Positions 31,138 through 37,893 of a DNA stretch of 64,000 nucleotides are shown here, piece after piece. Both the position numbers and the translations under genes were made by a program. The notes beneath the pieces are model-generated. The model was not told the origin of the DNA, did not search any database, and saw only the letters and a program-made list of their open reading frames with translations. The DNA comes from Lutimonas zeaxanthinifaciens (GTDB lineage: Bacteria > Bacteroidota > Bacteroidia > Flavobacteriales > Flavobacteriaceae), in contig NZ_CP129964.1 of the NCBI RefSeq assembly GCF_030503675.1, positions 1 to 64,000 on the forward strand, written 5' to 3'. Within the stretch, counting starts at the first letter, position 1. The number at the start of each line of letters is the position of its first letter.

Positions 31138-32502
31138 TTATTTAGGTTTGATATTCTGATTTACTCTAAAAAGGTTGTCTGGATCATATTTGCCTTTGAT
31201 TTCGACCAGGCGCTCATAGTTTTGGCCATAGCTGTCTTTGACCCTGTCATGTCCTTCATCCATCATAAAGTTTGTATAGGCTCCTCCTGATGAATAGGGA
31301 TGTAAGGCCTCCTGATAACTCTTTGCCCAGGCTGTTAGTTCCTCTGCTTTAGCCGGGTCTGGATCAACTCCAACAAAAACTCCGGCATACTTTGCATGTC
31401 GGTATGCCCATGGGGTATCCTCTGGCCCAGGTCTGCTGGCAGCTCCACTTATAGGATACAAGTGCATTTGTGACAATGGTGTTGGTATACTTGAGCCATA
31501 TTTTTTGTGCTCTGCACGAGCCTCAGGGCCAAGATCAGTAAAAAAGTCCGCCCTCCAATACCACTGCATTCCGGATGGCATGAGTCCGTCAAACAAAGTT
31601 TGAACAGAAGGATATGGCATTTCTCCCACATGATTGAAAATCGGGTTTTTATCGATCACGGGTTGGAAGAGTTCCTCAAATTTGTCCGGGTCCCCAACGT
31701 AGCACCATACAATTCCACAGAATTGTTTCATGTGCAACTCTTCAGGGAACGGAGGCCCCGGTATTATCATCGTGGCAATAAAACCATTCAATTCTTCCGG
31801 AACATCATGAATAAAGTTATGGTACCACTCCATTATTTCCTCGGTCTTTTCGATGGGCCATAAGGTTGGTCCTCCAATAACAGTTTTAACGGGGTGCGCC
31901 TGAAATTTGAAGGAGGTCACAATGCCAAAATTTCCGCCACCTCCTCTGATGGCCCAGTATAGGTCCGAATTCTGAGATTCATTGACCGTAACAAAAGAGC
32001 CGTCAGCAAGAACCATATCGGCTTCCAGCAAGTTGTCGATAGTGAGCCCAAATTTTCTAGAAAGGTGACCTACACCTCCACCAAGAGTAAGGCCTCCTAC
32101 ACCTGTTGTGGAGATAATTCCTGCCGGAACTGCAAGTCCAAAAGGATGAGTCGCATGATCAACTTCTCCCCAGAGGTTTCCGCCCCCAACACGAACCGTA
32201 TTATTCTTTGTATCGACACGAACGAATTTTATTCCTGATAAGTCGATCACAAGGCCATCATCGCAAATGCCTAGTCCACCACCGTTGTGGCCACCACCTC
32301 TTATCGCTATAAGCAAGTTATTTTCTCTTCCATAGTTCACACAGGAAATGACATCTGCAACGTCTACGCATTTTACGATCATTCCGGGTTTTTTGTCTAT
32401 CATTGCGTTATAGACTTTGCGCGATTCTTCATAACCTGTATCCTGAGGGAGAATAACCTCTCCTCGAATACTGTTCTTAAATAATTCAAAATTAGATTCC
32501 AT
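31138..32502 (-). CDS. FAD-linked oxidase, berberine-bridge-enzyme-like
   Basis: A 454-residue cytoplasmic flavoprotein of the PCMH/FAD_binding_4 plus BBE superfamily, related to 6-hydroxynicotine oxidase and glucooligosaccharide oxidase. The FAD loop 'AIRGGGHNGGGLG' (about 67-79) contains the His that carries the 8alpha-histidyl FAD bond. The second site used for a 6-S-cysteinyl bond reads 'STTGVGGLTLGGGVGHLSRK' and has no Cys, so a single covalent link is expected. The BBE C-terminus is seen as 'NYERLVEIKGKYDPDNLFRV' (about 428-447). No signal peptide. The substrate cannot be told; it belongs to a minus-strand metabolic stretch. Confidence 0.88.
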   Translation of the reverse strand: MESNFELFKNSIRGEVILPQDTGYEESRKVYNAMIDKKPGMIVKCVDVADVISCVNYGRENNLLIAIRGGGHNGGGLGICDDGLVIDLSGIKFVRVDTKNNTVRVGGGNLWGEVDHATHPFGLAVPAGIISTTGVGGLTLGGGVGHLSRKFGLTIDNLLEADMVLADGSFVTVNESQNSDLYWAIRGGGGNFGIVTSFKFQAHPVKTVIGGPTLWPIEKTEEIMEWYHNFIHDVPEELNGFIATMIIPGPPFPEELHMKQFCGIVWCYVGDPDKFEELFQPVIDKNPIFNHVGEMPYPSVQTLFDGLMPSGMQWYWRADFFTDLGPEARAEHKKYGSSIPTPLSQMHLYPISGAASRPGPEDTPWAYRHAKYAGVFVGVDPDPAKAEELTAWAKSYQEALHPYSSGGAYTNFMMDEGHDRVKDSYGQNYERLVEIKGKYDPDNLFRVNQNIKPK

Positions 32503-32633: not shown

Positions 32634-33383
32634 CTAAAATAACCAGGGAAACAGCGCTTTTCTCTCTGCTGGATAGTCAGAAAATTGAGATTTATACCAT
32701 TGGTGATGTTTAGTGGCTCTGGGTATGAGGTTGGCACAGGTCCAGACCAGAAAAGTCAAGGCAGGAAGGTTCCATGCCATGATTGCAAACCCGCCCCATT
32801 GAAGAAGTTCCCCAAAAAGATTAGGGCAGGATACATACTTAAAGAGAAATCCCTTTGGAATCTTGTAGCCTGTTTCCTTGGGTTTTCTAAGATGGATTAA
32901 TTTATGATCGCTGATCTGATTAATTATGAATCCTGTCAGAAAAAAAGTGATGCCCAGATAGAACTTCCAATCAGAAAAGGCTGTTTCTGAGTAGGTTTCA
33001 AAACGAGCAAGATAATAACCGTTTAATCCGGCATTGATCAGGTTAAAAAAGATAGCTGAGGCAACTATAATGAAAGGCATTTTTTTACCTTTTGTTCTTA
33101 TCCGCATTGGAAAGATGAATGTCCTGTTAAAATAGTGAACTAACCATAGGATTGAGAGCATTGAAGCGAAGGAACTTTGATCTGAACTGAGATAAAAATA
33201 GAGAATGATCAAAAAAGAAGGAACTTCCATAAGAACCCAACCTGCCTTATTGGAAATTTGAGGTCCCCAACCCGATTTGGTATGTCTCCCGTAAGGAGCG
33301 GTTACAAATTGGAGGAGAATAAACGTAGCTACACCCACAGCTATCCATATCCAGCAAATTGTATATAAGGTAGCTAAAGTCAT
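32634..33383 (-). CDS. Steroid 5-alpha-reductase-family (SRD5A C-terminal) membrane protein
   Basis: A 249-residue polytopic membrane protein of about six helices. The second half carries the 3-oxo-5-alpha-steroid 4-dehydrogenase signature: 'TGYKIPKGFLFKYVSCPNLF' (about 171-190), 'GELLQWGGFAIM' and the final 'RATKHHQWYKSQFSDYP' (about 223-239). Known members reduce a carbon-carbon double bond in steroids, polyprenols or enoyl-CoA using NADPH. The N-terminal 'APYGRHTKSGWGP' is also typical. Its ATG overlaps the stop of the upstream 3beta-HSD-like gene by 4 bases, showing translational coupling, so both enzymes probably act on the same lipid. Confidence 0.85.
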   Translation of the reverse strand: MTLATLYTICWIWIAVGVATFILLQFVTAPYGRHTKSGWGPQISNKAGWVLMEVPSFLIILYFYLSSDQSSFASMLSILWLVHYFNRTFIFPMRIRTKGKKMPFIIVASAIFFNLINAGLNGYYLARFETYSETAFSDWKFYLGITFFLTGFIINQISDHKLIHLRKPKETGYKIPKGFLFKYVSCPNLFGELLQWGGFAIMAWNLPALTFLVWTCANLIPRATKHHQWYKSQFSDYPAERKALFPWLF

Positions 33384-34381
33384 TTGATGTTATTTTCTTG
33401 AAACCAGGTAATTAGAGCTTCCACACTTTCTTTGACTGGTCTGCTGGAATGCCCCAATTCTTTCTGAGCTTTAATACAATTCATATTCTTTGGAGCATTT
33501 TTCAAAGTCATTAGGCTTTCTTTGTTAACCGGCCATCTAAGTGGAAACAATTTATCATAAAAATTGATCACAGGCAATAGCTTTAAAAGAAGGTTTACAG
33601 AAAGAACAGGGATTGTTTTTTTTGGGTTGGCTATTTTAGACAATTCCCTGAGGGTTATATAATGACCGCCTGTCAAATAAACAGAGCCTTTGGTTGCTTT
33701 AGTAAGGCTATTCTCAATTGTTTTGCAAAGATCTCTTACATCTACCATATTATACCCACCACTGGTAATGAAGGGGAGTTCACCCCGATGCATATCGAGT
33801 ATGGTACGGCCAAACCTCGAAATTTGAGGATCTTCGGGCCCAAGAATGGCTGTTGGCCTGAGGATATAAGCATCAAGCTTTTTTTGATCAACATAGTCAA
33901 GCACCAATTCTTCGGCTCTGGCCTTGGTCCAGGCATAATAAAAAGACTTATCCTCTCTATAAGGCCTGCTTTCGTCAAAAATTTCGCGCCCTGTTACATC
34001 TTCAGTTGCCGTTGAGGAACTAATGTACGCGAATCGGATATCTGAGTTTAAACAACAATTTAAAAGATTTCTGGTACCCTCTACGTTTACGCGGTAGATC
34101 AAATCGTGATTTCCTTCTCCAACCGATATGGCGCTGGCACAATGGACCAGATAATTGCAGTCCTGTATCAACTTCGACAAGCTGTCAAGGCTTAATAGAT
34201 CTCCCTGAACCCAATCCAGTTGAGGATGCGACCAGGGTGTTGTGCCTTTCCTAATCAGTGCTTTTACCCTGAAATTTCTATCGAGGAGGTGTTTTATCAG
34301 GTTTGTTCCTAAATGCCCTGTTGACCCCGTAACAGCAACTGTTTTGTGGGGTAATTTATTCATTTTTGTTTTCGTCTCCAT
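33380..34381 (-). CDS. NAD-dependent epimerase/3-beta-hydroxysteroid dehydrogenase-like
   Basis: A 333-residue extended-SDR enzyme with the Rossmann loop 'VTGSTGHLGTNLIKHLLD' (about 17-34) and the catalytic Tyr/Lys in 'SFYYAWTKARAEELVLDYVD' (about 145-164, Y-x3-K). 'AYILRPTAILGPEDPQISRF' (about 171-190) is the substrate-side signature shared with dihydroflavonol reductases and 3beta-HSDs. It would oxidise or reduce a hydroxyl group on an isoprenoid, steroid or other lipid. It ends in a 4-base overlap with the steroid 5-alpha-reductase-like gene, which supports a lipid ring or polyprenol substrate; exact chemistry is inference. Confidence 0.85.
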   Translation of the reverse strand: METKTKMNKLPHKTVAVTGSTGHLGTNLIKHLLDRNFRVKALIRKGTTPWSHPQLDWVQGDLLSLDSLSKLIQDCNYLVHCASAISVGEGNHDLIYRVNVEGTRNLLNCCLNSDIRFAYISSSTATEDVTGREIFDESRPYREDKSFYYAWTKARAEELVLDYVDQKKLDAYILRPTAILGPEDPQISRFGRTILDMHRGELPFITSGGYNMVDVRDLCKTIENSLTKATKGSVYLTGGHYITLRELSKIANPKKTIPVLSVNLLLKLLPVINFYDKLFPLRWPVNKESLMTLKNAPKNMNCIKAQKELGHSSRPVKESVEALITWFQENNIK

Positions 34382-35080: not shown

Positions 35081-36091
35081 TTATCTGTTTTTAACGAGCC
35101 GCCTTAAAATCGCCCATTGTTTTAAGGTTTCCTTTGCTTCTACTGCAGGAAAGCCCAAAATGGTTTGCCCGTCAGGGATATCATTAATGATTCCTGATTT
35201 GCCCCCAATTGTAACTCCATTTCCAATAGTAACATGATCTTTCACGGCTACTTGACCGGCCATCACTACGCCGTCTCCCAGGGTGACCGAACCTGAAATT
35301 CCACAACTTCCTGCGATCAGGCAGGCCCGTCCAATGACACAATTATGACCTATTTGTACCAAGTTGTCTATTTTGGTTGCATCACCTATGGTTGTTGAGC
35401 TGAATTTTCCCCTGTCAATGCAGGTTGAGGATCCTATCTCCACCTGGTTTCCAATAATGACATTGCCGATATGCGTTATCTTCACGATCCCCTTGCCATC
35501 AGGGCTTGGCCTATAACCAAAACCGTCGGATCCGATACTAACATTGGCCTGAAGGATCGAATAATGACCGATGATACATCTTTCGGCAATTACTGTACCT
35601 GATTTTACGATGGTATGGCTACCTATCTCAACATCATCAAGGATGGTAACATTTGGATAGATCTGAGAATTATTCCCTATCCGAACACCAGGTCCTATAT
35701 ATGAATTGGCCCCGACAACCACTCCTTCTCCAAGTTTAGCCGTACTATCAACCACAGCAGACGGATGAATTCCGGAATTTAATTGAACAGGTGGTGGTGT
35801 AAACAGATCCAGCAATTGTGCCATGGCCAGATCAGCATTCTCAACCTCGATAAATGCCCTGTTCGCCCCGGGCTCTTTAAGGCCCAAAGATTTATTTACA
35901 ATAGCCGCAGAGGCCTTTGAGTTTTCCCACAGGGAGATGTATTTTTTATGTCCTATAAAAGTAATGGCCTGCTTTTCTGCAGACTCGATCTGTTCAGGCT
36001 CGATGATTTCCTCACTTGTATGTCCGATAAGGGTCCCGTTCAAAAGCTCTGAAAGCTCCTCAATTTTATAGCTCTTTACTGTTTTTTCCAT
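35081..36091 (-). CDS. lpxD: UDP-3-O-acylglucosamine N-acyltransferase LpxD
   Basis: A 336-residue trimeric left-handed beta-helix acyltransferase that adds the N-linked 3-hydroxyacyl chain in lipid A synthesis. An N-terminal LpxD domain (about 1-95, with 'ITFIGHKKYISLWENSKASA') is followed by hexapeptide repeats (about 105-310) and a C-terminal helix. 'IGSDGFGYRPSPDGKGIVKI' (about 187-206) and the following 'THIGNVIIGNQVEIGSSTCI' contain the catalytic His region. It is not in the usual lpxD-lpxC-fabZ-lpxA cluster, so it may be the second LpxD-like copy many Flavobacteriia carry. Confidence 0.9.
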   Translation of the reverse strand: MEKTVKSYKIEELSELLNGTLIGHTSEEIIEPEQIESAEKQAITFIGHKKYISLWENSKASAAIVNKSLGLKEPGANRAFIEVENADLAMAQLLDLFTPPPVQLNSGIHPSAVVDSTAKLGEGVVVGANSYIGPGVRIGNNSQIYPNVTILDDVEIGSHTIVKSGTVIAERCIIGHYSILQANVSIGSDGFGYRPSPDGKGIVKITHIGNVIIGNQVEIGSSTCIDRGKFSSTTIGDATKIDNLVQIGHNCVIGRACLIAGSCGISGSVTLGDGVVMAGQVAVKDHVTIGNGVTIGGKSGIINDIPDGQTILGFPAVEAKETLKQWAILRRLVKNR

Positions 36092-36687: not shown

Positions 36688-37893
36688 TCAATTGAGAACA
36701 CATTTTATGCCTTCTCGGTCCATTTCCACAATACACGCATTGCAACGATTGCACCCGCTTTTATCAATTTCCCCCTGTTTCAGCTTGTGAAGAAATTCAG
36801 GATCATGAATCAAGGGCCTTGCCAGAGCTATAAAATTGAACCCATTTGAGACGACTTCTTCGATGCCTTTTTTGGAATCAATACCTCCAAGATAAATCAG
36901 GTCCAGATTGACTTCCTCACGAACTTTTATGGCTTTTTCCAAAAAGAAATTCTCCTTGAAGCGATATTTCTTTACGAGAAGAGGGCCAAACAGTGCCATG
37001 GTTAATTTTTCCGCAACGGAAGAGGCATTTTTGATCATTCCCTTTAGAGGAACACTGCCTCTTAAAAGATAAAACGGAGACTTACTTGTAAAACCGCCAC
37101 TCAACTCAATAGCAGCACATCCTATTTCTTCGAGTTTCTTTGAAACAAAGATACAGTCCTTTAATGAAAAACCTCCCTTGATCCCATCGTCCAGATTTAG
37201 TTTTACCAGTACCGGAAAATCGGGCCCGACAGATTTGATCACTTTATCAACCACGTAAAGAGGATATCGGCTCCTGTTCTTTATTGATCCGCCGTATTGA
37301 TCCTTTCTTTTGTTGGTAAGCGGGCTTAAGAATTGACTCAGTAAATAGCCATGCCCAAGATGAATTTCAACAGCGTCAAAACCAATTTTTTGTAATTCTC
37401 TTGCCGAAGTTTCAAAGTCGTTGGCAACACGGTCAAGATCATTCAGAGTCATAGCCTCCGAATAAATTAAACCAGAAAGGAAGCCGTAAGCATTGAAAAT
37501 TTTGCTGGGGGCCAGAACCTTTTTTGAGGTCTTGTTTTTAGTGAAATAACCGCAATGGGTCAATTGCATGGATACCCTGCCTCCTTCGTCATGCACCCTT
37601 ACAGCTAGTTCTTTCAACACCTTCAAACTAGCCTCATTTATATACATCTGATCTTTAAAAGTCCTTCCATCTGAAGAAACGGCCCCATAGGCAACGGTCG
37701 TCATCCCGACCCCGCCTTTGGCCATTGAAACGTGGTGGTCTATTAGTTTCTGATTGGGAATACCATGATCTGCCATTCCCTCATAGGTAGCGGCTTTAAA
37801 AAAGCGTGATTTCAGACTAAGACCCGAATTGCCCAATTTCGTAGGAGCAAAAGCTGTTTCAAAAGAGATGGATGAAGGATTTTCTTTAGACAT
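36688..37893 (-). CDS. NADH:flavin oxidoreductase, Old Yellow Enzyme family
   Basis: A 401-residue FMN-dependent TIM-barrel enzyme. Typical OYE features: 'KSRFFKAATYEGMADHGIPN' (about 28-47), 'GGRVSMQLTHCGYF' (about 103-116), 'GFDAVEIHLGHGYLLSQFLS' (about 172-191, the FMN/substrate His-x2-His region), 'LTNKRKDQYGGSIKNRSRYP' and the late 'GFNFIALARPLIHDP' (about 356-370). The end has three cysteines in 'GCNRCNACIVEMDREGIKCV', like the cluster region of 2,4-dienoyl-CoA reductase relatives, but the protein stops there and lacks their FAD/NAD domains. It would reduce activated double bonds; natural substrate unknown. Confidence 0.88.
   Translation of the reverse strand: MSKENPSSISFETAFAPTKLGNSGLSLKSRFFKAATYEGMADHGIPNQKLIDHHVSMAKGGVGMTTVAYGAVSSDGRTFKDQMYINEASLKVLKELAVRVHDEGGRVSMQLTHCGYFTKNKTSKKVLAPSKIFNAYGFLSGLIYSEAMTLNDLDRVANDFETSARELQKIGFDAVEIHLGHGYLLSQFLSPLTNKRKDQYGGSIKNRSRYPLYVVDKVIKSVGPDFPVLVKLNLDDGIKGGFSLKDCIFVSKKLEEIGCAAIELSGGFTSKSPFYLLRGSVPLKGMIKNASSVAEKLTMALFGPLLVKKYRFKENFFLEKAIKVREEVNLDLIYLGGIDSKKGIEEVVSNGFNFIALARPLIHDPEFLHKLKQGEIDKSGCNRCNACIVEMDREGIKCVLN

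Follow-up and report, generated by a model that had tools for sequence, protein, structure and literature searches.

In the marine Flavobacteriaceae bacterium Lutimonas zeaxanthinifaciens, two overlapping genes encode an extended-SDR oxidoreductase, here termed HSD, and a membrane reductase of the SRD5A type, an arrangement that recurs across Bacteroidota. It is rather likely that the two proteins form an NADPH-driven unit for the two-step reduction of the steroid A ring.

The locus in Lutimonas zeaxanthinifaciens

The window, that is, the whole stretch of 64,000 nucleotides that was analysed, covers positions 1-64,000 of NZ_CP129964.1 (assembly GCF_030503675.1), the single contig of a genome of 3,534,456 bases. 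The HSD and SRD5A open reading frames are both intact and both lie on the minus strand (Table 1); an alternative HSD start is available at Met7 (34363). The preliminary description had reported that the two genes overlap by four bases and had taken them to be translationally coupled; the overlap is present as an ATGA, and the coupling is what this overlap suggests.

Table 1. Features of the HSD-SRD5A locus, in window coordinates
Feature	Coordinates	Strand	Remarks
Extended-SDR oxidoreductase (HSD), proposed 3-keto/3-hydroxysteroid oxidoreductase	34381..33380	-	333 aa; upstream gene
SRD5A-type membrane reductase (PF02544), proposed steroid 5-alpha-reductase	33383..32634	-	249 aa; downstream gene
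ATGA overlap	33380-33383	-	HSD stop TGA and SRD5A start ATG
Old Yellow Enzyme (OYE), proposed third partner, 5-beta-reductase-like	37893..36688	-	401 aa
BBE-type FAD-linked oxidase	31138-32502	-	downstream of SRD5A
LpxD-like acyltransferase	35081-36091	-	named by eye; between OYE and HSD

OYE and HSD are separated by three genes on the same strand, encoding a lipoprotein (also named by eye), the LpxD-like acyltransferase and a GNAT protein. Apart from the pair and OYE, no transporter or catabolic cluster and no other steroid gene was recognised in the window. Because conservation of the BBE-type oxidase and the other neighbours extends little beyond the genus, with the oxidase near SRD5A in no more than a few loci, they were excluded from the unit. 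Alignment with relatives in the same genus gives the BBE-type oxidase 82-94% identity over most stretches (72% in one), above the 63-85% of SRD5A. The LpxD gene is absent at the corresponding place in genome G004 (locus L263).

The reductase and its dehydrogenase partner

SRD5A is a member of PF02544 (Steroid_dh), scoring 169.7 bits where the profile cut-off is 22.6, and it probably acts like a 5-alpha-reductase. A PDB search returned three matches, led by PbSRD5A (4.5e-58) and human SRD5A2 (4.7e-44). The AlphaFold2 model (pLDDT 90) reaches TM scores of 0.93 to PbSRD5A (7c83) and 0.89 to SRD5A2 (7bw1), with the third match of the fold search following at E 0.006. SRD5A2 Glu57 and Tyr91 have their equivalents in Glu53 and Tyr84, and this catalytic Glu and Tyr are present in all 119 window-type relatives; the eight NADPH residues of SRD5A2 (N160, D164, R171, N193, E197, R227, H231 and Y235), whose roles, like those of the catalytic residues, are taken from the accessible part of PMC7815742, are all retained in the window protein. 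A TECR-like enoyl-CoA reductase was considered and rejected, since the TECR-type protein ART-1 matches only residues 76-248, the C-terminal part, at 5e-14, against the far stronger PbSRD5A match, and differs at the D164, R227 and H231 positions. A second PF02544 protein in the same genome scores 40.6 bits and is about 20% identical to SRD5A. In the SRD5A tree the gut-type proteins form a group (100/99) that leaves window SRD5A outside, and TECR and SRD5A2, on long branches, obtain no confident placement.

In the QEY motif, Met52 takes the place of the Gln. Since the Q56A/L exchanges abolished the activity of human SRD5A2 (PMC7815742), this is regarded as a real departure from the motif, and, the Gln being missing, the protein is assigned to PF02544 only and not to the QEY-type class. 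Met stands at this position in 116 of the 119 window-type and in 5 of 5 gut-type SRD5As, and Gln in 3. As the gut-type relatives have Met too, Met-Glu-Tyr may be the form that this site takes in Bacteroidota and not a dead site. The Gln appears not to be a general feature. Plant DET2 likewise has Met-Glu at the motif.

HSD scores above the cut-offs of both PF01370 (103.3 bits) and PF01073 (89.9 bits, cut-off 22), the former being higher, and it carries the TGxxGxxG motif together with Thr18, Ser121, Tyr149 and Lys153 that mark the SDR superfamily, the last three residues being invariant in all 69 pair HSDs. No NCBIfam model matched at its curated cut-off. The closest known extended SDRs are HpnA (148.8, cut-off 367.65) and SdmB (141.1, cut-off 600), which are the best curated profiles, and NSDHL (6jkg, 7e-22); HSD nevertheless lies far below the curated cut-offs, and the pair HSDs form a clade of their own (96/98) in a tree of 36 proteins, comprising 27 of the 69 after thinning and nine references. 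With moderate support (91/74), this clade groups with gox2253, two HpnA-like paralogues from the same genome and NSDHL before the sugar enzymes, several branches being long and the deeper order unsure. A sugar epimerase was rejected as an identity for HSD on this moderately supported separation from sugar epimerases and dehydratases, and the placement in unrelated sugar or fatty-acid branches that the preliminary description had weighed against its own proposal is not what the tree gives. The fold search is led by gox2253 (Z 34.1), with many sugar enzymes at nearly the same level, down to 30.6, and does not separate substrates.

NAD enzymes usually have Asp at the position after the second beta strand. 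In HSD this position, residue 44, is Arg; the 69 pair HSDs have His, Arg, Tyr, Asn, Phe or Thr there and none has an acidic residue, which favours NADP(H) as the cofactor. HSD would then share its cofactor with the NADPH-dependent SRD5A, a match that argues for joint reduction by the two enzymes.

Recurrence of the pair and of the Old Yellow Enzyme

Within the genus, strong SRD5A matches occur in 10 of 22 genomes, that of the window included, strong HSD matches in exactly those 10, and the two genes adjoin in every one of them. Genomes from 84,980 species were scanned and yielded at least 590 SRD5A relatives, the best 80 of which were examined: an HSD gene (>100 bits) lies upstream of SRD5A and adjoins it in 49, across Bacteroidota, HSD is absent nearby in 29, two loci are cut off, and other gene families occur in at most 6 loci each. 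Lutimonas, Lutibacter and Xanthomarina are among the named matches listed. HSD also stands beside SRD5A in 17 of the 27 window-type Bacteroidales loci that were fetched. Among 69 non-redundant pairs, 30 could have the four-base in-frame overlap, including 9 of the 10 in the genus.

A set of 295 Bacteroidales genomes consisted of 28 with window-type SRD5A, 34 with gut-type SRD5A and 233 without SRD5A. With HSD matches counted from 200 bits upward, 19 of the 28 and none of the 34 or the 233 have one, which means that every strong-HSD genome (19/19) carries window-type SRD5A; just under the cut lie one genome with SRD5A (G638, 183.9 bits) and one without it (G647, 178.1). Here and below, co-occurrence tests carry no correction for kinship or incomplete genomes. 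That HSD and SRD5A are chance neighbours serving separate pathways would fit the 29 loci in which HSD is missing nearby, but adjacency in 49 of the same best 80 of at least 590 relatives, the rarity of every other family there and the complete co-occurrence among strong-HSD Bacteroidales make this reading extremely improbable, and it was rejected.

In the phylum sample, strong SRD5A matches are confined to 9 of 392 genomes, seven of them window-type, and HSD lies near the window-type gene in only two of these seven (G000 and G425). The pair had been described beforehand as rare and isolated in bacteria: the small number of carriers agrees with the former, but isolation does not hold, as the pair recurs across Bacteroidota and a gut relative appears in the accessible part of PMC10382948. 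Three loci from outside the window's class (L147, L149 and L150) have window-type SRD5A, without HSD, within a few kb of a uvrA-like gene (recognised by eye).

OYE directly follows SRD5A in the gut-type loci L143, L144 and L180-L182, and the gene order in L143 and L144 is SRD5A-OYE-classical SDR. The window OYE is BaiCD-like and belongs to the same subfamily as these enzymes, with 285-299 bits and 38-40% identity to them, whereas the best solved OYE reaches 124.5 bits. With a threshold of 380 bits, OYE is present in 12 of the 28 window-type, 33 of the 34 gut-type and 3 of the 233 SRD5A-lacking Bacteroidales genomes (the last being G583, G631 and G712), and Fisher's test of window-type against SRD5A-lacking genomes gives 7e-11, ignoring kinship. 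The enzyme occurs in 8 of the 10 SRD5A genomes of the genus and in 1 of the 12 others (Fisher 0.0015, kinship again ignored), and in 3 of the 392 phylum-sample genomes, all SRD5A carriers, with none in the 383 that lack SRD5A. Outside the genus, OYE above 400 bits was found in 19 of 64 window-type carriers, chosen by hand among long-flanked loci and Bacteroidales hits. This test shares at least 18 genomes with the one on the Bacteroidales set and so overlaps with it; OYE is present in 10 of these 18 and in 9 of the remaining 46. OYE probably helps the HSD-SRD5A pair as a third enzyme.

Several further arrangements were seen around OYE genes. A classical SDR of family F3 directly follows OYE in L250, L251, L252, L256 and L259 and is about 23-28% identical, where aligned, to the gut-type SDR; in L252 the OYE-SDR and HSD-SRD5A pairs lie within about 8 kb. 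The Bacteroidales loci L247, L248 and L249 show about 10 kb of synteny from HSD-SRD5A toward OYE, whose neighbour there is a protein that looks FAD-dependent. A second OYE subgroup, with about 260-305 bits to the steroid-linked model and no strong SRD5A, occurs in family f32 of the phylum sample (L230-L246).

Proposed reactions, alternatives and known systems

For the substrate, direction and stereochemistry of the pair and the role of OYE, we infer the following scheme. SRD5A would act on a 3-oxo-delta4 steroid, reducing its delta4 double bond to give a 5-alpha product, with hydride delivered to C5 and activation by Tyr84 and Glu53; HSD would interconvert 3-oxo and 3-hydroxy groups, with reduction as the most likely direction, to give a 3-hydroxy-5alpha steroid; and OYE would interconvert 5-beta and delta4 steroids, probably feeding the same pool. 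The steroid A-ring chemistry first proposed for this pair gains support from the fact that SRD5A is closest to steroid 5-alpha-reductases in both sequence and fold and from the co-occurrence of a steroid-linked OYE subfamily. The hopanoid-like substrate suggested at the same time has become unlikely, as has any home-made hopanoid or sterol, because the complete genome has no match to PF13243, the single profile used for squalene/oxidosqualene cyclases. For the same reason the substrate is most likely a steroid taken up from outside, probably an algal, animal or faecal sterol or a bile acid.

HSD might instead be an oxidising enzyme, a 3beta-HSD/delta5-4 isomerase, the pair taking a delta5-3beta-sterol through stenone and stanone to a 5-alpha-stanol and HSD performing both the first and the last steps. 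Such double duty is described for SpiR, which serves cholesterol reduction, and for 3beta-HSDH/I of gut bacteria in the accessible parts of PMC13079761 and PMC11722256, HSD does lie above the PF01073 cut-off, and stanones are named as intermediates of environmental stanol formation in PMC5217961. SpiR, however, binds NAD(H) and not NADPH (PMC13079761), and in window HSD Arg44 replaces the acidic residue; an oxidising role is accordingly judged unlikely, if worth keeping in view. A comparably small chance is given to a module whose main role is to convert 5-beta steroids, for instance bile acids that reach sea water or sediment, into flat 5-alpha isomers, with OYE running backwards to the delta4 compound. 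The sharing of an OYE subfamily with gut-type clusters, its strong co-occurrence with SRD5A and the 'indirect pathway' known from the gut (PMC10382948, PMC9645264, as far as accessible) speak for it, but OYE is missing in 16 of the 28 window-type Bacteroidales genomes and in 45 of the 64 carriers outside the genus.

SRD5A3-type relatives reduce polyprenols, and the substrate of the pair could be one of the cell's own isoprenoids other than a steroid, be it a polyprenol, a carotenoid or a quinone precursor, a reading that sits well with a genome that, by the PF13243 test, builds no steroid ring of its own. It is nonetheless improbable: SRD5A is closest to SRD5A2 and PbSRD5A, carriage that is patchy in both the genus (10/22) and the phylum sample (9/392) would be odd for a core lipid, and SRD5A is linked to the BaiCD-like OYE subfamily. 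Reduction of an imported steroid's A ring by HSD and SRD5A is preferred.

The 5-alpha-stanols of soils and sediments are held to derive from microbial sterol conversion (PMC5217961, accessible part). In the open-licence literature, no paper was found that names genes for their formation, and nothing was found there on an HSD-SRD5A pair in marine bacteria or on Lutimonas and sterols. It is tempting, if tentative, to suppose that the pair, with or without OYE, is a route by which free-living Bacteroidota convert environmental sterols or bile steroids to these stanols, which serve as 5-alpha biomarkers, through a Met-Glu-Tyr site. If so, HSD-SRD5A would be a marker gene pair for environmental 5-alpha-steroid formation, could help to explain which organisms make such steroids, and would have a role open to test in cultured Lutimonas, Lutibacter and Xanthomarina.

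The module is most likely a variant of the gut 5AR/5BR/3beta-HSDH module. In P. merdae, the cluster that contains 5AR also holds genes for a predicted 3beta-HSDH and for an NADH:flavin oxidoreductase, and disruption of the 5AR gene stopped the formation of alloLCA derivatives (PMC10382948, accessible part); the gene order of L143 and L144 suggests that they are P. merdae-type clusters. The gut Bacteroidota cluster and the window share an SRD5A-type 5-alpha-reductase, an OYE of about 400 aa from the same subfamily, a hydroxysteroid-dehydrogenase-like SDR and the phylum. They differ in that the gut SRD5A falls inside the gut-type clade, OYE directly follows SRD5A instead of lying upstream, three genes from HSD, and the dehydrogenase is a classical SDR placed after OYE instead of an extended SDR overlapping SRD5A; the gut cluster, moreover, comes from gut bacteria and the window from a marine Flavobacteriaceae. 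The window module was kept outside the gut cluster because it has neither the OYE adjacency nor the clade membership. The gut bile-acid 5AR module would thus belong to a wider environmental family with another dehydrogenase partner.

Compared by description in PMC13079761 and PMC11722256, as far as these are accessible, SpiR and 3beta-HSDH/I acting with a 5-beta-reductase resemble the pair in combining an SDR with a delta4 reductase for a two-enzyme reduction of the sterol A ring, but they reach 5-beta products through an OYE, whereas the delta4 reductase of the window is an SRD5A, from which 5-alpha products are expected. PbSRD5A and human SRD5A2 share with window SRD5A the fold, the Glu/Tyr and the NADPH residues, and the window protein differs from both in its Met at the QEY motif and in having a partner HSD gene.
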